From Microtetraspora fusca (GTDB lineage: Bacteria > Actinomycetota > Actinomycetes > Streptosporangiales > Streptosporangiaceae), in assembly GCF_001570365.1 (NCBI RefSeq), contig NZ_BBYK01000053.1, forward strand, positions 62,001 to 126,000: DNA of 64,000 nt, written 5' to 3'. The position numbers were made by a program, and so were the translations under genes. Below the pieces are notes generated by a model. It saw only the letters and a list, made by a program, of their open reading frames with translations, was not told the DNA's origin and searched no databases. Positions 5,311-22,516 of the stretch are shown piece by piece. Each line of letters begins with the position of its first letter. Positions within the stretch are counted from its first letter, which is position 1.

Positions 5311-5365
5311 TCACCAGCGGACCGGGACGGTGCGCAGGCCGCCGACGGCCAGCCCCTCCACCCGC
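5311..5365 (-). pseudogene. Last codons of a cytochrome P450 gene
   Basis: The minus strand encodes RVEGLAVGGLRTVPVRW followed by TGA at 5313-5311. Actinomycete P450s commonly end in ...GL..LPVRW, and a ferredoxin start follows 42 bases later, the standard P450-ferredoxin order. Everything before about 5365 is transposase sequence in the opposite orientation. The haem-binding cysteine region is gone, so this is only a scar. Confidence 0.6.
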
Positions 5366-8170
5366 TCCGTCGCGGAGCGGCTGGGCGTGTCGCCGGCGGC
5401 GTTGTCGTTGTACGGGCAACGTGCGCAGACCCGCTCGGACCATCTGGCGCAGGCCGCCGAGTACCTGGAGTGGAAGACCGCCCCGGCGGGTGGTCAGGCG
5501 ATGAAGGAGCTGGAGCAGTTCCTGCTGGATCGGGCGATGGAGCACGACTCGCCGACGCTGCTGTTCAACCTGGCGCGCGAGTATCTGATGGCGGCCAAGG
5601 TGATCCGGCCCGGCGCGCTGGTCCTCGCCAAGATGGTCGGCACGGCCCGCAAGGGCGCCTCCGATCTGACCTCGCAATTGGTGGGGCACCTGCTGACGGA
5701 GGAGGTCCGCGCCGACCTGGAGCGGATGCTGCTGGTGGATGCGGGGCTGGGGATGACCCGACTGGAGTGGCTGGTCAGCCCGGCCCGGGATGCCTCGGCG
5801 ACCTCGGTGAAGACCGCGATCGACAAGCTGACCTGGCTGCGCGCGATCGACGCCCACCAGATGGATGTGTCGGTGCTGCCGAACGAACGACGCCGGTTCC
5901 TGGCCCAGGTCGCGCGCCGCTCGACGAACCAGGGCCTGGAGCGGCGCAAGGAGCGCAAGTTCCCGATCCTGCTGGCGTTCGTGGCCCAAGCCGCCATCGA
6001 CCAGCTCGATGAGGTGGTGGCCCTGTTCGACCAGGCCGTCTCGGCGCGGGAGTCACGGGCGAAGTCCAAGACGGACGAGGCGCTGATCGAGCGGGCCAAG
6101 AAGGGCGAGACACGGCAGCTGCTGATGGAGGAGATCCTGCCCGCGCTGGCCGACCCGTCGATCCCCGACGATGAGGTGGGCGGGATGCTGCGCGAGCGGA
6201 TCGGCATGCAGCGACTGCGGGAGATCACCTCCGATGCGTGGAAGCCGCTGCCCAGGGATCACGGTCGGCTGTCGGAGCTGGAGCCCTCCTACACCTACCT
6301 GCGTCAGTTCACCCCGATCGTGCTGGCCGCGATCGACTTCCAGGGCGGGCCGGGCACGGGCGAGCTGATGGAGGCGGTGGCCCTGTTGAAGGAGCTGAAC
6401 CGGACCAGTGGCCGCAAGGTGCCCGCGGGCGCGCCGACCGGCTTCGTGCCCGCAAAGTACGCCGACTACCTCGACAAGGCCCGCAAGTCCGGCGAGGACA
6501 CCGCCTACCGGCATTACTGGGAGCTCTGCGTGATCTTGTGCCTGCGCGACGGGCTGCGCAGCGGGGATGTGTTCGTGCCCGGCTCGCGCCGCTACGCCGA
6601 CCCGGCCACCTACCTGTACACCCCCGAGCAGTGGACGCCCAAGCAGGCCGAGTACTGCCGCCTGGTGGGCAAACCCGCCAACGCGACCGACGCGCTGGAG
6701 CAGGGCAAGCAGGAGCTGCACGCCGCCCTGGCGGAGCTGGAGCAGACGCTGGCCGGCGCCTCATCCGACGACGCCGGCACGGTCCGGCTGGATGAGGAGG
6801 CGCATCTGGTGGTACCGCCGCTGTCGGCCGAGGACGTGCCGGCAGAGGCCAAGCAGCTGAGGGACGAGCTGGCCGCGATGCTGCCGTTCGCGCCGATCGC
6901 CTCGCTGCTGATCGAGCTGGACGCCCGCACCGGCTTCCTGGACTGCTTCACCCACGCCGGCGGGCGCAAGCTGGCCACATCGGCGGAGACCAAGCGCAAC
7001 ATCCTCGCTGTGCTGATCGCGATGGCCACGAACCTGGGCCTGGCACGGATGTCGGAGGCATGTGGGGTGTCGTATGACGTGCTGGCCTGGACGATGGAGT
7101 GGTACGTGCGGGAGGAGACGCTGCGCGAGGCCAACACGGTCATCGTCGATCACCACTACCAGTTGGAGCTGGCCAAGGTGTTCGGCGGCGGCACCATGAG
7201 CTCATCCGACGGCCAGCGTTTCCCGGTCCGGGGTAAGACTCTGACCGGCCGGAACATGGTCATCCACGGCGGTCAGGTGCTGTCGACCTACACCCACGTC
7301 TCGGATCAGTGGTCCACCTACGGCACGAAGATCATCGTACCGACGGCGCGGGAGGCGCACTTCGTCCTGGACGACTTCCTCGGCAACGCGACCGACCTGC
7401 CGATCGTCGAGCACGCGACCGATACACACGGCGCCACGCTGATCAACTTTGCACTGTTCGACCTGGTCGGCAAGGCCCTCACCCCGCGGATGCGGGACCT
7501 GACCCGGGTCACCCTGGTGCGCGACGACACCCCGACCGAGATCGCCAAGCGCTACCCGCATGCCGGGCCGCTGCTGGGCGCGCGCTGGAATGAGGACCTG
7601 GTGGCCGACTGCTGGCCGGACCTGCTGCGGATGGCCGGTTCGTTGAAGTACGGCCAGGCCACCGCGTCGCTGATCGTCGGCAAGTGGTCGGCCGCCTCCC
7701 GGCAGAACACCCTGGCCGCCGCCCTGAAGGAGTGGGGAATGCTGCGCAGGACCGTCCACCTCGCCAAATACCTGTCGGACCCGGCCTTCAGGAGGAAGAT
7801 CTCGCGGCAACTGAACAAGGGCGAGAGCCTGCACGCGCTGCGACGCGACCTGCACTATGCCCAGCAGGGCACCATCACCCGCCCGCACCTGGAACAGCAG
7901 ACCGAGCAGGCGTGGTGCCTGACCGTCTTGACCAACTCCGTGGTCGCCTGGACGACCGAATATTATTCTCGGGCGGTGCTGGAGTTGCGCTCGCAGGGCC
8001 GGGACGTGCCGGACGAGATCCTGTCGCACATCTCGCCCGGCCACAGCGACAACATCAACTTCTTCGGCGTCATCAACGTCGACGTCGAGGCGGAACTGGC
8101 CAAGCTCGACACCAGCGGATGGCGGCCGCTGCGGCCCGCGCAACTGCGCGAGATGGGGCTGACGCCCTGA
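5361..8170 (+). pseudogene. tnpA: Tn3-family transposase (TnpA), N-terminally truncated
   Basis: About 935 residues match Tn3-family TnpA from the VAERLGVSPAALSLYGQRAQ segment (about residue 80 of complete proteins) to the C-terminus. The DDE triad is present: D in SSDGQRFPV (codon 7208), D in ATDTHGA (codon 7421) and E in ALKEWG (codon 7730). The roughly 80-residue DNA-binding N-terminus is missing and the frame runs on upstream into unrelated sequence, so no proper start exists and the protein is probably inactive. A Tn3 N-terminus is found alone at 14039-14080 on the other strand. No 38-bp terminal repeat was recognised. Confidence 0.85.
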
Positions 8171-11371: not shown

Positions 11372-12100
11372 ATGGACGTGGCAAGCGGTGACGAGCGGGG
11401 CACGACGGAGCGGGTGCTCGCCCTGCTCGGGCTGCTGCAGCAGCGTCAGGACTGGACCGGCCCCGAGCTCGCCGACCGGCTCGGGGTCACGCCGCGCACG
11501 GTACGGCGTGATGTCGGGCGGCTGCGCAGGCTCGGCTATCGGGTGCATGCCGGCCAGGGTGTCGGCGGCGGCTACCGGCTCGGCCCGGGGCAGGAGCTGC
11601 CGCCGTTGCTTCTCGACGACGAGGAGGCGATCGCCACTGCGGTCTCGCTGCTCGCCGGTGCGGGTGGCGCGGTCGCCGGCGCCGGCGACGCCGCACTCCG
11701 GGCATTGACCAAGCTTGACCGGGTGCTGCCCACCCGGTTGCGGCACGAGGTGCGCGCGCTCTCCGGTTCGGTGGAGCCCTTTGGCGGAGGGCGTGCGCCG
11801 GCCGACGCCGTCGAGGTGTTGATGATGCTGGTCAGAGCCTGCCGCGATGAGGTCGAGGCCGGCTTCGACTACCCGTCCGGGAGCGAGGTGCGTCGGCGGC
11901 GGGTCGAGCCCTACCGCCTCGTCGCGTCCGACCGGCGCTGGTACCTGCTCGCCTACGACCTCGATCGCGACGACTGGCGCAGCTTCCGCATCGACCGGAT
12001 GACCGAGGTGTCTGTACGGACCTGGCGCTTCCGCCCACGCGCGGCGCCCGACGCGGAGGCTGCCGCCCGAAGGTACTCAGAAGCGGAGGGGGAGTTCTGA
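11372..12100 (+). CDS. HTH-WYL transcriptional regulator, C-terminally short
   Basis: 242 residues: an HTH_11 domain (GPELADRLGVTPRTVRRDVGRL), the GGGYRLG linker, and a WYL domain whose usual trio is seen in RRWYLLAYDLDRDDWRSFRID. A complete relative in this window (26249-27205) is 318 residues and has a WCX domain after WYL. Here the protein stops just where WCX should begin. Ligand sensing may be altered, or the gene may be a decaying copy. ATG 11372 follows a perfect dyad. Confidence 0.85.
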   Translation: MDVASGDERGTTERVLALLGLLQQRQDWTGPELADRLGVTPRTVRRDVGRLRRLGYRVHAGQGVGGGYRLGPGQELPPLLLDDEEAIATAVSLLAGAGGAVAGAGDAALRALTKLDRVLPTRLRHEVRALSGSVEPFGGGRAPADAVEVLMMLVRACRDEVEAGFDYPSGSEVRRRRVEPYRLVASDRRWYLLAYDLDRDDWRSFRIDRMTEVSVRTWRFRPRAAPDAEAAARRYSEAEGEF

Positions 12101-12232: not shown

Positions 12233-12329
12233 ACAGTCGGCGGGTCGCGTCAGCCCAGCTCAGCATCCAACGCCGCGACCGCGACTCGGCAACATTATGT
12301 GTCACATCGCCTCGGAGGAGGACGGCCCC

Positions 12330-13292
12330 ATGTCCGTCGTGGCCTTCCCCTGCCAGCCGAGCCAGCCCGACCCGGCCACCGACCCGACGACCGCGGCCGC
12401 CGTCGAGCGCTTTCTCGACTCCCTCACCTCGGCCACCACCCGCGTCGGCTACGCCGAGACCCTCGCCCGGCTGACCGCCGTAGTCGGCACGCAGCATCTC
12501 GTCGCCGCGCTGGCCCCCGAGCACTACGCCGCGGTCATGGACCGCTGGCACACCGCAGCCGCCGCGACCTGGAACCGGCACCTGTCCGCCTTATGCTCCT
12601 TCACCGCCTGGGCCCAGCGCCAGGAACTGCTGGCCACCAACCCCGCCCGTCGGCTGGAGCGCCGCAAGAGCGCCCGCCGCGGCGACCGCGCCATCCCGCG
12701 CACCCGGCTGGACGCGCTCTTCACCGACCCTGCGCACGCCCTGCGCGAGCGGGTCCTGTGGCGGCTCTTGTACGACACGGCAGCCCGCGCCGAGGAGATC
12801 CTCACCCTCAACGTCGAGGACCTCGATCTGGAGTTCCGCCGCGCCCGCGTCACCAGCAAGGGCGGCACCGTCGAGTACGTGCACTGGGCCACCACGACGG
12901 CCCGGCTGCTGCCCCGCCTGCTGGGTGGCCGCACCACGGGGCCGGTGTTCCTGGCCGACCGGCGCGCCCCCGCCTCCGGCCGCCGCGCGCCGGCGGCCGA
13001 CGACATCGACCCGGTCACCAAACGCGGCCGACTGTCCTACCCGCGCGCCGAATACCTGTTCAAGACCGCCTCGGCCACGCTCGACCCGCACCGCCAGGGG
13101 CGGACCCTGCACCAGCTCCGCCACTCGGCGCTGCAGCACCTCGCACAAGCCGGCCGCACCGCGCCCGAACTACAGGCCAAGAGCCGCCACCAGCACCTGG
13201 CCAGCCTCGGCCGCTACGTCCGCCTGGGCGAAGAGACCTCCGCCCGCATCACCGCCGAAGCAGACCCCGCCCGGCGCCGCCGCATCCGCTGA
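12330..13292 (+). CDS. Tyrosine recombinase / integrase
   Basis: 320 residues: N-terminal SAM-like core-binding domain (about 15-110), then the catalytic domain with R153 in TAARAEE, K177 in SKGG, H261-x-x-R264 in HQLRH, H287/H289 and nucleophile Y296 in GRYV. All catalytic positions are present, so it should be active in site-specific strand exchange. ATG 12330 has GGAGGAGG about 10 bases upstream. No tRNA gene adjoins it, so attachment at a tRNA is unlikely; XerD-like or integron-like free-standing recombinases of actinomycetes are alternatives. It is convergent with a small unknown gene. Confidence 0.9.
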   Translation: MSVVAFPCQPSQPDPATDPTTAAAVERFLDSLTSATTRVGYAETLARLTAVVGTQHLVAALAPEHYAAVMDRWHTAAAATWNRHLSALCSFTAWAQRQELLATNPARRLERRKSARRGDRAIPRTRLDALFTDPAHALRERVLWRLLYDTAARAEEILTLNVEDLDLEFRRARVTSKGGTVEYVHWATTTARLLPRLLGGRTTGPVFLADRRAPASGRRAPAADDIDPVTKRGRLSYPRAEYLFKTASATLDPHRQGRTLHQLRHSALQHLAQAGRTAPELQAKSRHQHLASLGRYVRLGEETSARITAEADPARRRRIR

Positions 13293-14080: not shown

Positions 14081-14230
14081 AACCCGCAACGTAGGGCGAA
14101 CCCACCATCACCTCACCCACAGCGGCCAAACCGTTACAAGATCCCGACCAGTCGACGCCCACCCAGGCCCTGTTCTCCCGAAGCTACGGTGAAGTGACAA
14201 GTAGCTCTCTGTAATCAGAGTGACGCTCGG

Positions 14231-14806
14231 TCAGGAGCAGCGGGGCGGGGTCCAGGGACTTTCGCCGACCTGGAGGGCGGCGAAGTCGGCGTGGGCCTGT
14301 TCGACGGCTTCCGGGTATGCCTCGCGTTTGGCACAGGTAGCAGGTCACCTGCTGCCCGCCGATCCGCACCGTCACATCACCGAAGTCGACCTCTGCCTCG
14401 GCGCCGGGTCGATGCGTCTGGGGGATGTAGGCCTCGACCGGTCCCCGGCCGGCCTCCACCCGGATCTGTGGGCGGCGCTCGGCGACGTAGCGGAGCACGA
14501 TCCCATAGGACACCTGCGCACCGTGCTCGTCCACCAGCCGATCAAAGATCCGCTTGACCGTGTGGCGCTGCTTGCGTGGCGCATCCAGTCAGCCCCCAGC
14601 ATGGCATCGATCACCGGCTTGAAGGGGTCCAGCAGCGACGCACGCGGAGCCATCTTCTTCCGCGGCCGCGGCCACGCCGACTCCAAAGCCTTGCGCACGG
14701 TCGGATGCGAGACCCCGTGCTTGCGCATCACCGCGCGGATCGACAGGCCCGCCCGCACATCACGCCGGAGCGCCGCATACAGCTCGGTCTTGGACTGCCG
14801 CGACAT
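14231..14806 (-). pseudogene. istA: IS21-family transposase IstA, frameshifted and truncated
   Basis: From ATG 14806 the minus strand reads MSRQSKTELYAALRRDVRAG and HGVSHPTVRKALESA, the IstA helix-turn-helix. Near 14585-14590 the frame slips by one base: APRKQRHTVKRIFDRL continues only in the next frame, followed by EVDFGDVTVRIGG, which holds the first catalytic aspartate. A second shift near 14335 seems likely (AKREAYPEAVEQ in a third frame). The rest of the DDE domain and istB are missing, so the element is dead. Confidence 0.75.
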
Positions 14807-14861
14807 CCAGCGCCCCTCACGGTGGGTGACACACCAGACGCTCCCACAGCGGCCCAACGCC

Positions 14862-15100
14862 ACCCCGGCGGAGATCGCGTTCGCGCGCCTCTGGCGGGAC
14901 ATGCCGAAGGTGGTGTTCTCATCGACGATCGACAAGGTCGACTGGAACACCCGCCTGGTCACCGGCGACGCGGTCGCCGAGATCGCCCGGCTCAAGGCCG
15001 AGGACGGCGCCCGATGGACATCGGCGGCGCGACGCTCGCCGGGGCGGCCATGCGGGCCGGGCTGATCGACGAGTACGCGCTGGTCGCCGCCCCGCCGGCA
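14862..15100 (+). pseudogene. Dihydrofolate-reductase-family (RibD C-terminal) remnant
   Basis: The plus strand reads MPKVVFSSTIDKVDWNTRLV and AEIARLKAEDGA; a one-base shift near 15010 moves the frame to MDIGGATLAGAAMRAGLIDE. This is the order found in the DHFR-like proteins with RibD C-terminal fold. The N-terminus is missing at the IS21 junction, and the 3' end runs into a strong hairpin at 15087. Not functional. Confidence 0.7.
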
Positions 15101-15552: not shown

Positions 15553-15620
15553 TGAAAGTGCGTGAAGAACAGGGATCCGGCGCTAAATCCTCACGTCAGT
15601 GTGAGAGTCAAGCCGCTGCG

Positions 15621-15986
15621 TCACGCAGCGACAGGTCTCGGGCTTGCAGAGATCACGGTCTCCAGTGCGTCGACCGAGGTGCGCAGCGTGTCGATCCGCT
15701 CAAGGAGTTCGTCTCGTTCGGCGACGAGCTCGTCGTAGAGATCGGAGCAGGTCAGCGCGAGGCCGTCGTCGTGCTGGGTGAGGCAGGGCAGGATGCGCTC
15801 GATCTTGCGGGTGCTCAACCCGGCGGCCAAGAGCGCTCGGACGCGTTGCACGCGGATCACGTCGGCCTCGTCGTAGACGCGGTATCCGCTGGGCAGTCGC
15901 GTCGGTTGGAGCAGGTGCTGTTCCTCGTAGTACCGCAACGACCGGATGCTCACCCCGGCACGTCGCGACAACTCACCAATCCGCAT
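15621..15986 (-). CDS. MerR-family regulator of the divergent MFS exporter
   Basis: 121 residues: MRIGELSRRAGVSIRSLRYY is the MerR winged helix start, followed by SGYRVYDEADVIRVQRV and a C-terminal dimerisation coiled coil (about 80-110). There is no large effector domain. ATG 15986 has a perfect AGGAG. It is divergent from an MFS gene across 56 bases that contain a long-spaced promoter, the usual MerR activation layout. Confidence 0.9.
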   Translation of the reverse strand: MRIGELSRRAGVSIRSLRYYEEQHLLQPTRLPSGYRVYDEADVIRVQRVRALLAAGLSTRKIERILPCLTQHDDGLALTCSDLYDELVAERDELLERIDTLRTSVDALETVISASPRPVAA

Positions 15987-16003
15987 CCCGACTCCTTTCG
16001 GAC

Positions 16004-16035
16004 TTGACTCTCACGTCCATGTCAGACTTTAGCGT
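16004..16035 (+). promoter_or_regulatory. MerR-type promoter of the MFS gene
   Basis: TTGACT (16004-16009) is followed by an imperfect dyad around CTCTCACGTCCATGTCAGAC. A -10 is best placed about 20 bases on (TAGCGT, 16030-16035). The over-long spacer with central symmetry is characteristic of promoters untwisted by MerR proteins. The MFS start at 16043 follows. Confidence 0.5.
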
Positions 16036-16042
16036 CGAGGGC

Positions 16043-17278
16043 ATGTCCGCTCCTTGCTCCACCTCTGTTCCGCCGGTCGGGGTGCCACGCCTGCTGTCGT
16101 TCGCGTTCGTGCTCGGTGCCTTCGCGCTGGGCACCTCGGAGAACGTCATCGCCGGCGTCCTACCGCGCCTGTCCGAGGCATTCGCAGTGCCGGTTTCCGA
16201 TGTGGGGCTGCTCGTGACGGCCTACGCGGGAACCGCCGTGATCGCCGGCCCGGTGCTTGCCCTGCTGACCGCACGGATGCCGCTGCGCAGACTGACGATC
16301 ACGGCAATCGTCGTGTATGCCGCCGGAACAGTGCTGGCGGTCTGTGCTCCGACGTACCCGCTGCTGATGGCGGCCAGGATCGTCACCGGAGCACTGCACA
16401 CTCCGGTGCTGGTCGCGTTCATGCTCACCGCTCTCCGCCTCGCACCAGCAGAACAGCGCGGGCGTACCGTCGGGCGCATCACCTTGGGCCTCGGCGTCGC
16501 CACGGTGATCGGGGTGCCCATCGGCAACGCCCTGTCAGAAACCCTCGGGTGGCAATGGACCTTCGCTCTCATCGCCGTCCTCGTCGGGTTCACGCTCCTG
16601 ATCGTGTTTGCCGTCTTCCCCGACGATCGCACCCCGCGCGGCGAGACTGGCCGGCGATCACTGCGCGTCCTCACTCGCCGATCGGTGAACGGTGGAGTCG
16701 CAATGAGCGCACTGGCTGGGTTGGGCGCGATGACCCTGCTCACCTTCGCCGTGCCGTTCCTCACGAACACCGGGATCAGGGAGAAAACAGTTGCTCCGCT
16801 GCTGCTCGTCTACGGTGCGGCCTGTCTTGCGGGCAACGTTCTCGGCGGCAGGCTCGCCGACCACGGCCTCAGCAAGGCCCTCACCATGACGCTCACCGGA
16901 ACCGGCCTCGCCCTACTCGTTGCGGGCCTCATCAGCGGGAGCACAGTGGGGGCGGTCGCGGGCTTGGCATTGGTCGGATTGACCTACTTCTCCACGTTCC
17001 CGCCCTTGAACACCTGGATCGCGACCCACGCAGATGGCGTCGCGCCCGATCTCGCCCTCGCTGTCAACAGCTCCGCGTTCAACATCGGAATCGCCGCCGC
17101 CGGATGGCTCGGCGGCACCACCCTCACTGCCGGGCTCAGTGCGGCACACCTGCCTTACCTCGGTCTCGGTGCCGTGATCAGCGCTGTTGTCGTCTCGATC
17201 CTGCTGCGCTCTGATCGTGAAGCCCCGGCCGCTCGATCACAGCCGCCGAGGCTCCCCGAGCATGATCAACCTTGTTGA
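16043..17278 (+). CDS. MFS exporter, DHA1 12-helix, chloramphenicol-exporter-like
   Basis: 411 residues, twelve hydrophobic segments. The N-terminus ALGTSENVIAGVLPRLSEAF, motif A-like region and GRITLGLGVATVIGVPIGN (motif C) resemble the Cmx/CmlR/AraJ group of drug and sugar exporters. ATG 16043 is chosen because it follows the MerR-type promoter and has a GAGGG site; the ATG at 16019 lies inside that promoter. Control by the divergent MerR is likely. The specific drug is not determinable. Confidence 0.88.
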   Translation: MSAPCSTSVPPVGVPRLLSFAFVLGAFALGTSENVIAGVLPRLSEAFAVPVSDVGLLVTAYAGTAVIAGPVLALLTARMPLRRLTITAIVVYAAGTVLAVCAPTYPLLMAARIVTGALHTPVLVAFMLTALRLAPAEQRGRTVGRITLGLGVATVIGVPIGNALSETLGWQWTFALIAVLVGFTLLIVFAVFPDDRTPRGETGRRSLRVLTRRSVNGGVAMSALAGLGAMTLLTFAVPFLTNTGIREKTVAPLLLVYGAACLAGNVLGGRLADHGLSKALTMTLTGTGLALLVAGLISGSTVGAVAGLALVGLTYFSTFPPLNTWIATHADGVAPDLALAVNSSAFNIGIAAAGWLGGTTLTAGLSAAHLPYLGLGAVISAVVVSILLRSDREAPAARSQPPRLPEHDQPC

Positions 17279-17377
17279 GAACTGGCTGATCGGCTGATCA
17301 GGACTCTGCATCGGGCCTCTCACCAGCCCAGATCAACGCCGTTTGGGGCCTATGACAGCGTTCATGCCGACACCCCA
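17268..17377. repeat. 110-bp direct repeat, copy 1
   Basis: Identical at 105 of 110 positions to 19094-19203. It begins in the last codons of the upstream MFS gene. Within it GTTGAGAACTGGCTG (17274) and CAGCCCAGATCAAC (17324-17337) form an imperfect inverted repeat, and CTGATC is duplicated in the core, so the unit can fold. The 17279-17606 spacer holds no gene apart from this copy. Confidence 0.9.
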
Positions 17378-17606
17378 TGATGGGCCTCGCGGTCGTTTCG
17401 CATGATCAGTTCGTGGCAGAACGGATCATTACGGGACGACCGCACTCATGTGCGGATAGTTACGTAAGCGAGATCACGTACGTCAAGCCACAAGGAGCCT
17501 GCGCAACAGCGAGTGATTGCTCCACAGAGAAAGCGTCAGAGCCCCCACCCCGCTGATGCCGCTCGCTGAAAATTCGCAGAGCGCCAACACCCCTAGGGTA
17601 GATCAG

Positions 17607-18839
17607 ATGCCCCCCGCTTTCCGTCGTTACGTCACCGCCGACGGCTTCAGCCAGTTCGGCACCCAGGTCACGCGCGTGGCCCTCCCGCTGGTCGCGCTGC
17701 TGGTGCTCGACGCGGGCCCGTTCCAGCTCGGCCTGCTCAGCGCCGCCGAGATGATCGGCTTCCTCCTCTTCGGGCTGCCCGCCGGCGTGTGGGTCGACCG
17801 GTTGCGCAGGAAGCCCATCCTGGTGACGGCCGACGTGCTGCGCGCAGTGTCCCTGGCCTCCATCCCGATCGCCGCGCTGTTCGACGCGCTCACGCTGGCG
17901 CAGCTCTACGCGGTCGCCGTGATCGTCAGCATCGGCACGGCCTTCTTCGACGTCGCCCACCTGAGCTTCCTGCCCTCCATCGTGACCAAGGAGCAATTGC
18001 CCAAGGGCATCGGAACCCTGGAGTCCGTGCGCAGCCTCGCCGTGCTCTTCGGCCCCGGGCTCGGCGGCTGGCTCGTGCAGGCGCTCACGGCGCCCATCGC
18101 CATCGTGGCCGACGCGGTCAGCTACATGATCTCCGCCACCTTCCTGGCGACCGTCAAGGCCGAGGAGACCCCCTCCGGGGGGCGCGTGAGCCTCATGGAG
18201 GGCCTGCGCTACGTGCTCGGCCACCCCATCCTGCGCCTGATCGGCCTCGTCGGCGCCATGAACATGTTCATCAACGGCATCTGGGCCATCGTCCAGCCGT
18301 TGTACCTGGTCGACGAGCTGGGCGTGAGCGCGACGGCCTACGGCCTGATGATCTCGGGCGCGGGGGCCGGCGGCCTGCTGGGCGCGCTCCTCGCGCCACG
18401 CGTGATCGCCCGCTACGGTCACGGCCCCACGATGTACGGCACAGCCGTTCTCATCATCCCGCTCAACGTGCTCGTCGCCTTCACAGGACCAGGCTGGCGG
18501 CTCGCCCTCTACCCGATCGGCATGGCGCTCATCTTCCTGGTCGCGGTCATGTACAACGTCGCCCAGGGCAGCTACCGCCAGGCGATCTGCCCAGAAGCCC
18601 TGCGCGGCAGGATGAACGCCAGCCTCCGCTTCCTCATGTGGGGTTCGCTGCCGCTCGGCGGTGTCGTCGGCGGCCTGCTGGGCGAGGCGGTCACCGTTCA
18701 CCAGCTCCTGTGGATCGCCTGCCTCGGCACCGCGGCGGCCAACCTACCCTTCGTGCTGGCTCCCGCCGTACGAAAGCTCAAGATCACGGACGACGGCGGC
18801 CGTGTGGACGCCGACGCCAAGGAGGACAGCCGCGCGTAG
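17607..18839 (+). CDS. MFS transporter, enterobactin-exporter-like
   Basis: 410 residues, twelve hydrophobic segments. It opens FRRYVTADGFSQFGTQVTRV and has motif A as GVWVDRLRRKP, as in EntS/TetV-type exporters with a soluble N-terminal lead. ATG 17607 is preferred: TAGGGT, an actinomycete -10, lies at 17595 so the transcript may be leaderless. ATGs at 17556 and 17517 are alternatives. The 3' end overlaps antisense with a cofC remnant, and the gene lies between the two 110-bp repeats, so it may belong to the repeat-bounded unit. Confidence 0.85.
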   Translation: MPPAFRRYVTADGFSQFGTQVTRVALPLVALLVLDAGPFQLGLLSAAEMIGFLLFGLPAGVWVDRLRRKPILVTADVLRAVSLASIPIAALFDALTLAQLYAVAVIVSIGTAFFDVAHLSFLPSIVTKEQLPKGIGTLESVRSLAVLFGPGLGGWLVQALTAPIAIVADAVSYMISATFLATVKAEETPSGGRVSLMEGLRYVLGHPILRLIGLVGAMNMFINGIWAIVQPLYLVDELGVSATAYGLMISGAGAGGLLGALLAPRVIARYGHGPTMYGTAVLIIPLNVLVAFTGPGWRLALYPIGMALIFLVAVMYNVAQGSYRQAICPEALRGRMNASLRFLMWGSLPLGGVVGGLLGEAVTVHQLLWIACLGTAAANLPFVLAPAVRKLKITDDGGRVDADAKEDSRA

Positions 18840-19093
18840 GTCGTCGGGGGTGTCGACGTCGCGCCTGACCGAGTCGATGTCGTCGAGCCGCAGCTCCTTG
18901 GCGCCGCCCGCGAGGTGCTTGGCTCTCGACTCGCCGCCGAAACGCGGTGTGAACGGCGTGCCGGTGTAGAAGGTCGTGCCCACGTCGAGCGCATCGGGGA
19001 CGAAGGCCTGCTCGAACTCCTCTGCCGCCTGAAGCACCCGGGCCAGCTCAGCCGGGCGCAGGGCGGGCAGGTCGGCCTGCAGCGCGCCGATGA
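18744..19093 (-). pseudogene. cofC: CofC (2-phospho-L-lactate guanylyltransferase) C-terminal remnant
   Basis: The minus strand reads FIGALQADLPALRPAELA, GTTFYTGTPFTPRFGGESRA and SVRRDVDTPDDLRAAVLLGV, the C-terminal half of the F420-biosynthesis nucleotidyltransferase CofC. The N-terminal GTP-binding half is missing: homology stops exactly at 19093, where repeat copy 2 begins. Its 3' end overlaps the MFS gene by 96 bases. F420 side-chain synthesis would need another copy elsewhere. Confidence 0.75.
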
Positions 19094-19203
19094 AACCTTG
19101 TTGAGACCTGACTGATCGGCTGATCAGGACTCTGCATCGGGCCTCTCACCAGCCCAGATCAACACCGTTTGGGGCCTATGACAGCGTTCTTACCGACACC
19201 CCA
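19094..19203. repeat. 110-bp direct repeat, copy 2
   Basis: 105 of 110 positions match 17268-17377. The left edge coincides with the truncation point of cofC; the right edge precedes an XRE-regulator gene. The two copies are 1826 bp apart and in the same orientation. Confidence 0.9.
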
Positions 19204-19374: not shown

Positions 19375-19875
19375 GTGGACAACCGAGACGAGATCCGCGA
19401 CTTCCTCGCCACCCGGCGTGCCAAGATCACGCCTGAGCAGGTCGGGCTACCCTCCGGAGGACGCCGCCGGGTGCCCGGACTCCGACGCGAGGAAGTCGCC
19501 GTGCTCGCCGGCGTGAGCACCGAGTGGTACACCCGTCTCGAGAAAGGCCACATCACCGGCGTCTCTGACGACGTCCTCAACGCCGTGGTCCGAGCCCTCC
19601 ACCTCGACGACGCCGAACGCGCCCACCTGTTCGACCTGGCCCGCGCCGCCGGCCCCGGACACCCCCTCCAACGACGCCCTGCGACTCCTCGCCAGCTGGG
19701 CCGTCACCCTCGACCACACGGACAACCGGCCACGCAGGCAGACCGAGCAGCGCCAGGACACGGCCGTGAACACCAGGCGCAGCTGACGGCCTCGGCCGCC
19801 CCGCGATCTCGAAGCGACCCGCGGCTCAACCGGACGGGGTGGACGATTTGTCGGTCCGGACCAGGGGCGGCGTGA
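19375..19875 (+). pseudogene. MmyB-like XRE regulator, ligand domain lost
   Basis: From GTG 19375 (GAAGG upstream) the protein reads FLATRRAKITPEQVGLP, RRRVPGLRREEVAVLAGVS and TEWYTRLEKG, the HTH_31 domain of actinomycete MmyB-like regulators, to about codon 95. Complete proteins continue with a roughly 170-residue ligand-binding domain (…YVRNGRLDILAAN…). Here the frame turns into proline/arginine-rich sequence without homology and ends inside the 3' end of the convergent P-type ATPase gene. A DNA-binding fragment could still be made. Confidence 0.65.
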
Positions 19876-22135
19876 GTTTGACGGCGAGGCTGGTGACCAC
19901 GGCCCCGACGGCGGCGATGCCGACGGCGATCAGGATGTCGTACAGGCCGTCGAAGTCGAAGGCGAAGAAGTCACGTACGTACGGCACGGCGAGGGCGGCC
20001 ACGAAGAGCCCCGCCATGGCCGCGACCAGACCCAGCCGCCACGCGGTCCCGGGGCGTACGACCATCACGAGCACCCACCAGGTGACCAGGAACAGGGTGA
20101 TGACGGCGGACGTCTGGTCCTGTTCCAGTGAGGACTCGGGGAGGTGCGCGGCCCAGAAGGACGCGAGCACCGCGGCCGCGCATGCCACGCCTGCCGGTAC
20201 GGCGAAGCGCAGCACCCTCGGCACGAACCCCGGCCGGGCCCGCTGGATCGTGGGCGCCAGCGCGAGGAAGAAGGCGGGGACGCCGATGGTGAGCGCGTTG
20301 ACCAGGGTGGAGTGCCGCGGCGCGAACGGGAAGGCCAGCCCGGTCAGCCCGGTGAGCAGCGACAGCGTGAGCGCGTAGAAGGTCTTGGTGAGGAACAGGT
20401 TCGAGACGCGCTCGATGTTGGCCAGCACCCGGCGTCCCTCGCCGACCAGGTGGGGGAGTGTGGCGAAGCGGTTCTCCATCAGGACCACCTGCGCGACCGC
20501 CTTGGTGGCGGGGCTGCCCGCGCCCATCGCGATGCCGAGGTCGGCGTCCTTGAGCGCCAGCACGTCGTTGACCCCGTCGCCGGTCATCGCCACCACGTGG
20601 CCGCGTGACTGGAGCGCGCCGACGAACATCCGCTTCTGGTGCGGGGTGACCCGTCCGAAGACCGTGTTGGAGTCGAGGATCTCGGCGAGCTTGTCGGGGT
20701 CGTCCTCGGGGAGGGTACGCGAGTCGACCGCCCTGTCACCGCCGGGGATGCCGAGTTCGGTGGCGATGGCGGAGACCGCCTGCGGGTTGTCGCCGGAAAT
20801 GACCTTCACGGTGACGCCCTGCTTGGCGAAGTAGGCCAGGGTTTCCCGGGCGTCGGGGCGCAGGCGCTGCGCGAGCGTGACGAGCGCGACGGCCTCGGCG
20901 TCCTGACCGTCCAGGCCGGGCGCGCGGCAGAGGGCGAGCACGCGGGCGCCGGTGGCGGCGAGGTCGCTCGCCCTGGCGTACGCGGAGCTGTCGGGGTCGA
21001 TGAGGACGTCCGGAGCACCGAGGAGCCACGCGCCGTGGCCGTCGAAGTCGGCGCCGCTCCACTTCCGGGCGGAGGAGAAGGGCATCCGCTCCCTGGCCGC
21101 CCACCCGGGCGGGGCCGAGGGGTAGCGGGCCTGGATGGCCTGGGCGGTGGGATTCGGTCGCGGGTCGGCGTTGGCGAGGGCGGCCAGGGCGTCCTCGACC
21201 GGCTCGCCGTCGCGCAGGGGCAGCACCTCGTCGAGATCCATGCCGCCCGCGGTGAGGGTGCCGGTCTTGTCCAGGCACAGGACGTCCACCCTGGCCAGGC
21301 CCTCGATGGCGGGGAGTTCCTGCACCAGGCACTTGCGGCGGCCCAGGCGGACGACGCCGACGGCGAAGGCGATGCTGGTCATCAGCACCAGCCCTTCGGG
21401 GATCATGGTGACGATGCCGGCCACGGCGCCGGTGATCGCGGCGCCGAAGTCGGCGTGGTGGCTGACCTGGCTGTAGATCAGCAGCGCGCCGATGGGGACG
21501 ACCAGCCAGGTGATGTATTTGATGAAGCGGGTGACGCCGTCGCGCAGCTCCGAGCTGGCCAGGGCGAACTTGCTGGCCTCGGCGGTCAGGCGCGCGGCGT
21601 AGGCGTCCTCGCCGACTCTGGTCGCGGTGAACGCGCCCGAGCCCGCGACGACGAAGCTGCCCGACAGCACCTGGTCGCCCGGCTCCTTGTGCACGGGATC
21701 GGCCTCGCCGTTCAGCAGCGACTCGTCGACCTCCAGCCCCTCGGACGCCACGACCTCGCCGTCCACCAGCAGCCGGTCGCCGGGCCCGAGCAGGATGAGG
21801 TCGCCGAGCACGATGTCGCGCGGCTCGATCTCCCGCTCCGCGCCGTCCCTGCGCACTCTGACCGGGGCCTCGTTGACCACGGCCAGGCGGTCGAGGGTCC
21901 GTTTGGCGCGGAGCTCCTGCACGATGCCGATCAGCGAGTTGGCCACGATGACCAGGCCGAACAGCCCGTCCTTCCACTCTCCGAAGATCATGATGAGCAG
22001 CCAGAGAACGGCGATCACCAGGTTGAACAAGGTGAGGACGTTGGCTCTGACGATCGCGCCGAGAGATCGGCTGGATCTGCGCGGCACGTCGTTGCGTTTC
22101 GACGTGGCGACCTGCGCTGACGTGAGCCCGTCCAA
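19826..22135 (-). CDS. ctpE: CtpE-type cation-transporting P-type ATPase
   Basis: 769 residues with the P-type ATPase landmarks in order: ESLLNGEADP (actuator, N-G-E in place of T-G-E), IPEGL in helix 4, DKTGTLT (phosphorylated aspartate), TGDGVND hinge, and six C-terminal helices. PEGLVLMTSIAFAVGVVRLG matches mycobacterial CtpE, a calcium uptake pump. TTG 22135 is the likely start, with GGGGGA just upstream and homology beginning at once (LDGLTSAQVA). The open frame upstream is not homologous. Convergent with the XRE fragment. Confidence 0.88.
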   Translation of the reverse strand: MDGLTSAQVATSKRNDVPRRSSRSLGAIVRANVLTLFNLVIAVLWLLIMIFGEWKDGLFGLVIVANSLIGIVQELRAKRTLDRLAVVNEAPVRVRRDGAEREIEPRDIVLGDLILLGPGDRLLVDGEVVASEGLEVDESLLNGEADPVHKEPGDQVLSGSFVVAGSGAFTATRVGEDAYAARLTAEASKFALASSELRDGVTRFIKYITWLVVPIGALLIYSQVSHHADFGAAITGAVAGIVTMIPEGLVLMTSIAFAVGVVRLGRRKCLVQELPAIEGLARVDVLCLDKTGTLTAGGMDLDEVLPLRDGEPVEDALAALANADPRPNPTAQAIQARYPSAPPGWAARERMPFSSARKWSGADFDGHGAWLLGAPDVLIDPDSSAYARASDLAATGARVLALCRAPGLDGQDAEAVALVTLAQRLRPDARETLAYFAKQGVTVKVISGDNPQAVSAIATELGIPGGDRAVDSRTLPEDDPDKLAEILDSNTVFGRVTPHQKRMFVGALQSRGHVVAMTGDGVNDVLALKDADLGIAMGAGSPATKAVAQVVLMENRFATLPHLVGEGRRVLANIERVSNLFLTKTFYALTLSLLTGLTGLAFPFAPRHSTLVNALTIGVPAFFLALAPTIQRARPGFVPRVLRFAVPAGVACAAAVLASFWAAHLPESSLEQDQTSAVITLFLVTWWVLVMVVRPGTAWRLGLVAAMAGLFVAALAVPYVRDFFAFDFDGLYDILIAVGIAAVGAVVTSLAVKLTPPLVRTDKSSTPSG

Positions 22136-22516
22136 TCGATCCCCCCATAAGCACCTGGATTCGGCAGATCTCAAGGCTAGGAGACGCGCGGGGAATTCGG
22201 CGCGACGACGATCAGATTCCTCCACGATCGCGCAGCTCGGACGGCTTCGCCCGACCGCGATGTGCTTCATCCCATACTCGGCCGCGCCGTGATCCGCCCG
22301 GTCTGCGCCGCCGTCGCGGGTCGATCTCGGCCCGCGCCGCGTCCCGGCACGAGCACTGATATCGTCCGGAATGGAATGTTCCCCCGAGCAAGGGACGTTC
22401 CGCCACCGAAAGACCGCTCGGCGGCCGACCCCCTGCAGTGTCGGTAACAACCCCGGTCGAAGCCCACCATGACGGTGAGCTCCTCCGGGCTCTCCGTCGC
22501 CACCTGGACGGAGACC
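22136..22516. other. Divergent promoter region, no gene seen
   Basis: The spacer between ctpE and the divergent MFS gene contains no convincing coding frame. It is slightly richer in A/T around 22360-22400 (ATATCGTCCGGAATGGAATG), where promoters for both genes probably lie. No clear dyad was found. Confidence 0.4.

Follow-up and report, generated by a model that had tools for sequence, protein, structure and literature searches.

What are the two nearly identical 110-bp repeats that bracket an MFS transporter gene in Microtetraspora fusca, the second of them at the very place where a cofC gene breaks off? The first-pass annotation of the window (the whole 64-kb stretch of contig NZ_BBYK01000053.1 that was analysed) suggested either an undescribed intergenic element or the ends of a unit that includes the MFS gene. 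The repeats are genuine and far above the chance level (Table 1). The two copies lie in one orientation at a spacing of 1826 bp and are identical at 105 of the 110 positions, with mismatches at repeat positions 14, 18, 71, 97 and 99 and a longest identical run of 52 bp. When the genome of this strain (108 contigs, 9.02 Mb) was searched, copy 2 matched copy 1 with an E value of 5e-45; the other 16 listed matches were a 45-bp stretch of contig 100 (E 1e-8) and 15 matches with E >= 0.46. The ability of each copy to fold through an imperfect inverted repeat, which had also been proposed, is not beyond chance: single-strand folding is at the shuffled mean, with z values of 0.03 and -0.28 for the 110-nt copies and of -0.77 and -0.87 for the first 70 nt of each. 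An RNA element was rejected on the same folding result and on a search of Rfam at E <= 1, which gave one chance match elsewhere, and a phage origin was rejected as well, with no match in the phage collection.

Table 1 Features of the repeat locus, in window coordinates.
Feature	Coordinates	Strand	Remarks
First MFS gene, Cmx/CmrA-like	16043..17278	+	NF033135 over residues 22-384 of 411; 195 bits, below the family cut-off of 400
Decayed serine-resolvase gene 3' tail (last codons, stop) and start of the spacer, joined to the first MFS 3' end	17228..17267	+	Left limit uncertain by ~7 bp
Repeat copy 1: resolvase-to-end spacer and Tn3-family terminal inverted repeat	17268..17377	+	Last base is flank
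38-bp terminal inverted repeat, copy 1	17339..17376	+	PWM score 55.1; private changes at 17364 and 17366
Between-relic segment: unrelated leader, MFS gene, truncated extra cofC	17377..19093	.	
MFS transporter gene (Pfam MFS_1/MFS_3)	17607..18839	+	69% nucleotide identity to the G006 MFS gene adjoining cofC
Extra cofC (2-phospho-L-lactate guanylyltransferase), C-terminal half, cut at copy 2	18747..19093	-	TIGR03552 positions 96-196 of 196
Repeat copy 2: equivalent transposon end, beginning 33 bp or more inward of the copy 1 start	19094..19203	+	Last base is flank
38-bp terminal inverted repeat, copy 2	19165..19202	+	PWM score 62.1
DNA shared with congeners resumes (P-type ATPase gene region)	19861..21000	-	89-90% to G001, G002 and G003, from 19861 or 19871

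The right-hand part of the repeat identifies it. Both copies finish in CACCCC and thus carry a terminal repeat of ~38 bp that starts with GGGG when read from outside, in agreement with the criterion for the Tn3 family; in this direction, the last 38 bp start GGGGTGTCGG. Comparable elements end at CCCC, so the 110th base of the repeat belongs to the flank. The PWM behind the scores in Table 1 was trained on 13 ends, both window ends included, and its score did not exceed 11.0 in any of 20 shuffled windows. At other loci, matching ends directly adjoin Tn3 tnpA genes, and the tnpA proteins of L051, L196 and L197 contain the Pfam domains DDE_Tnp_Tn3 and DUF4158; on these grounds, the end is identified as that of the Tn3 family. 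The repeat is thus not an undescribed intergenic element, given that its last 38 bp constitute a Tn3-family terminal inverted repeat.

The same end was traced in 23 fetched loci from Streptosporangiaceae, several of which are broken by contig ends. Scanning of these loci yielded 22 above-threshold matches (L189 not at the expected place), with an inverted partner in four, and in this sample, ends without an inverted partner are more numerous than pairs. Seven of the 23 loci (L059, L189, L193, L196, L197, L199 and L201) have an L051-type tnpA next to the end; in L059, L196, L197 and L201, the position equivalent to the L051 tnpA start is located 57 bp inward of the end. The L196 unit, 6080 bp in length, consists, in this order, of an end, the 3' end of a resolvase gene, other frames, tnpA with an apparently frameshifted C-terminus, and an end. 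In L198 (2678-4303), an inverted pair spans 1624 bp, and its outer flanks are inverted (AACAT and ATGTT), not duplicated.

With the plasmid form of the end as the query, 57 plasmid records were retrieved, 54 of these from Streptomyces. The L073 locus (NZ_CP108157.1) contains an inverted pair that spans 5995 bp, with AGCTT at both flanks, a resolvase gene adjoining one end and a truncated tnpA adjoining the other. In L077, the inverted pair spans 5210 bp and is flanked on both sides by GTTTC; an IS1182 transposase and a hypothetical gene lie inside, and tnpA outside. An exact 5-bp target duplication accompanies two of the seven inverted pairs examined, namely, those of L073 and L077, and is lacking in the other five, with 4 of 5 bases in L200. 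Two Streptomyces plasmids contain ends in the same orientation, 7-8 kb apart (at 12008 and 19015 in L074; at 3835, a weaker match, and 12006 in L075).

The left limit of the repeat is of a different nature. Copy 1 does start within the 3'-terminal part of the first MFS gene, as originally described, but homology to other genomes begins further to the left, already at ~17228-17235 (at 17228 in the BLAST comparison). The match in contig C71 of G007 begins at base 2 of the 17235-17378 query (left 90 bp, 96%), and that in contig C2 of G240 covers 142 bp of the copy 1 stretch at 81%. The sequence to the left of the 110-bp repeat is common to these two contigs and copy 1 and is absent from copy 2; copy 1 is therefore the longer relic, and the 110-bp 'unit' lacks a true boundary on its left side. 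The G007 counterpart of this extra stretch encodes the C-terminus (ITAAKAPQA, followed by the stop) of an open frame with a Pfam Resolvase domain, so that the recombinase remnant in the repeats amounts to the last codons of a serine resolvase (PF00239 type), in copy 1 only. The last ~15 codons and the stop of the first MFS gene are derived from the transposon relic. In the L115 locus (G269), pieces of an L051-type tnpA, the C-terminus of a G007-type resolvase and the end share one strand and follow the order required for the window relic. The resolvase tail of copy 1 is thereby tied to this type of transposon.

The first MFS gene was also considered as transposon cargo, and this was rejected: plasmids gave no good match (one hit, with 14% coverage), and 4 of 59 other genomes gave weak matches only, within the first 460 query bases (the MerR gene). 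Ahead of this gene, a 35-nt inverted repeat (74%) surrounds the gene for a MerR-type regulator (15578-16037). Further upstream, the window contains an open frame for a tyrosine recombinase of the phage-integrase family (12297-13292, plus strand) and broken frames (14184-14995, minus strand) that resemble an IS21-type transposase by eye and have no Pfam match.

The rest of the transposon is absent beside the copies, so both are resolvase-side stubs. No tnpA is present in or beside either of them, and the 64-kb window contains no convincing inverted partner end; a weak match on the minus strand (22434-22481) scores 21.5 with a three-sequence matrix and not above 15 with the 13-sequence matrix, and does not end in CCCC. 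No target duplication was seen at the copies, the left ends of which are lost, and insertion at this site is therefore not proven. A complete copy of exactly this transposon lineage was not found in the genomes and plasmids searched. The stretches fetched at the other Tn3 transposase and resolvase matches in the genome of this strain (L079-L092) contain no such end above a score of 10; in contig 44 (L083), there is a broken fragment of an L051-type tnpA (73% over 113 aa).

The window does contain, at 5345-8170 on the plus strand, a Tn3-family transposase gene that lacks the N-terminal part and is fused in frame to the upstream sequence. It matches NF033527 from position 55 of 954 (702 bits), and its relatives, at up to 92% over nearly the whole length in other genera, are found in 44 of 341 genomes at E <= 1e-150. 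Copy 1 could then be the right end of one large transposon that includes this gene on the same strand, and the order and strand of tnpA, resolvase tail and end agree with such a unit. Moreover, a G007-type resolvase lies beside tnpA relatives in 2 of 14 fetched loci (L219, 4609-8884; L220, 6628-8196), and L191 and L200, two of the 23 end loci, hold tnpA pieces with 52-66% identity near the end. Nevertheless, we consider this quite improbable. None of the 14 loci with tnpA relatives has this end near tnpA (L226 alone shows weak matches, ~2 kb or more beyond), the tnpA genes that directly adjoin the end in L196, L197 and L201 are just 22-24% identical to 5345-8170, and the frame between tnpA and the end in L191 has no Pfam match. 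The low identity, together with the 14 loci without the end near tnpA, indicates that the 5345-8170 relic probably comes from another element.

Across the family, the repeat gave a match at E <= 1e-6 in 22 of 341 genomes, that of this strain included. Among the 23 places listed outside this genome, a count that is a lower bound because the search scored two candidates per genome, 18 span only 40-50 bases at the right end. A pattern scan of the genome contigs found three stretches, two in G240 and one in G008, none of them a new place. Tn3-type ends of this kind thus occur scattered singly in the family.

The best explanation, to which we assign a probability of about 0.92, is that the two repeats are resolvase-side ends of a Tn3-family transposon that was present in two same-orientation copies, which were eroded by deletion. 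The parts on which this reading is built are observed, namely, the terminal repeat, its association at other loci with genes for Tn3 transposases and resolvases, and the lack of the rest beside the copies. Each end would have the layout of a resolvase gene 3' tail, a spacer of ~70 bp and the 38-bp terminal inverted repeat. A transposon of this lineage would have been present twice, in the same orientation, flanking a segment with the MFS gene and cofC, and deletions would have left only the last 110-150 bp of each transposon copy, one deletion having its endpoint in the first MFS gene, at its 3' end, and the other within cofC. Of the proposal that the repeats are the ends of a mobile unit, one half holds, in that they are transposon ends; an ordinary unit with the MFS gene as its cargo is unsupported because the repeats represent one and the same end, oriented alike, whereas the two ends of a Tn3 unit are inverted.

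The similarity of the between-copy segment to cofC ends at copy 2, as first reported: nucleotide similarity to the MFS-cofC locus of G006 reaches window position 19088. The truncated gene scores 73.8 bits against TIGR03552, under the cut-off of 105. A complete second cofC is encoded on contig 50 of the same genome (155 bits, cut-off 105), so the truncation implies no loss of cofC function. Among 59 other genomes, G006 has homologues of the MFS gene (69%) and cofC (78%) adjoining in the same order, and G008 and G018 have both homologues on separate contigs; in three congeners, there is no DNA match to the between-copy MFS gene at E <= 1e-20. The first-pass annotation regarded as evidence against its reading a unit restricted to this locus, with relatives that carry the MFS gene and no repeat. 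The unit, or its right part, is found beyond this genome, and no such end adjoins the MFS homologues in G006, G008 and G018, which represent three other genera (L122 and L174, from one genome, L123 and L124; flanks of at least 1.5 kb).

To the right of copy 2, the DNA shared with the congeners resumes only at the P-type ATPase gene region, and directly left of this region, the window matches none of G001, G002 and G003. The congeners vary here as well: left of the ATPase gene, G002 has no match to G001 or G003, and the printed stretches of G001 and G003 share a short piece. A search of the genome of this strain with the G002 neighbourhood gave matches on other contigs. An empty site was sought left of the ATPase gene in the three congeners, and none was resolved in this variable region.

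How did two copies come to lie in the same orientation? They have three bases in common (17273, 17313 and 17370) that are not found in the aligned relatives, which suggests that they probably derive from a single transposon lineage; the A at 17370 is found also in L194, L196 and L197, so this particular base is weak evidence. Of the five differences between the copies, those at 17281, 17364 and 17366 are clearly private to one copy; the status of 17285 and 17338 is less clear. Tn3 transposition yields cointegrates with directly repeated copies, which replicative transposition leaves before resolution. The pair might be the fossil of such an unresolved cointegrate, in which replicative transposition fused a donor replicon with MFS-cofC into the chromosome, with subsequent deletions and loss of res. 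The direct orientation of the ends and the shared bases are compatible with this history, as are the resemblance of the between-copy segment to an MFS-cofC locus of another genus (G006), the lack of a match to its MFS gene in the congeners and the separate complete cofC. However, the target duplication that would decide the matter sat at the lost left end of copy 1, the 5/110 differences demand an old event, and just 1.7 kb of donor DNA would remain. In the competing history, related Tn3 transposons inserted twice, independently and in the same orientation, and each copy was subsequently eroded from its left side. The five differences, the different left limits and the single ends scattered through the family speak for it; the three common bases and the erosions that stop ~33-40 bp apart speak against it, and Tn3-family immunity is thought to bar a second copy per replicon, according to PMC4133298. 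Direct copies around foreign DNA, combined with this immunity, favour a cointegrate or a duplication over two chance insertions. Overall, we rate the cointegrate and independent insertion about equally, each as a tentative option short of probable, because the deciding bases (the left end of copy 1 and the duplication) are gone. It appears rather unlikely that the pair is a fossil cointegrate of a 'direct-end' island class (compare L074 and L075) that brackets a captured MFS-cofC segment and the ends of which could still be acted upon in trans.

One-ended transposition, in which one end would have mobilised DNA on its own, the opposite end being variable, is discussed together with solo Tn3-type ends in PMC4133298, and loci with an inverted partner are indeed a minority (4 of 23). 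This route is nonetheless improbable here: the left limits and the right flanks (ATGAT after copy 1 and ACATA after copy 2) share no 5-bp duplication, and both left limits lie at the resolvase end, not at random. Being short, non-coding and present in two copies, the repeats also bring to mind a TIME (Tn3-derived miniature element) or some other discrete intergenic repeat. Such an identity is extremely doubtful given that the 110 bp include no second inverted end, that the left limits of the copies differ and that the sole further match in the genome is a 45-bp end.

The decayed ends described here, with their 38-bp terminal repeats, are similar to Tn4556 of Streptomyces and to the actinobacterial Tn3 transposons covered in PMC6403206. 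Like the family to which the window ends belong, the transposons described there duplicate 5 bp of the target and carry tnpA at one end, with a recombinase gene close to the opposite end. Unlike in Tn4556-type transposons, to which the ends are likened by description, not by sequence, the resolvase-side end alone survives in the window, and does so twice. The recombinases differ, too: the tail in the window is of the serine-resolvase type (PF00239), whereas PMC6403206 discusses TnpR with PF00589. With TIMEs, the copies share Tn3-type ends without a transposase gene, and the TIME paper mentions many solo IR-like sequences. In contrast to TIMEs, which, as described there, have two inverted ends within ~262 bp, the window copies have one end each, with the resolvase tail in addition in copy 1.

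The repeats are decayed Tn3-family ends in a stretch rich in mobile-element remains and, as such, ordinary; what stands out is their direct orientation, shared with the pairs in L074 and L075. Today, these relics are probably inert, except as short direct repeats and as candidate binding sites for a matching transposase. Ordinary transposon decay explains both the odd repeat and the broken extra cofC, and the terminal codons of the first MFS gene are to be treated with caution as transposon-derived. For the Streptosporangiaceae, the 38-bp end together with the resolvase-side spacer provides a signature of decayed Tn3 elements.
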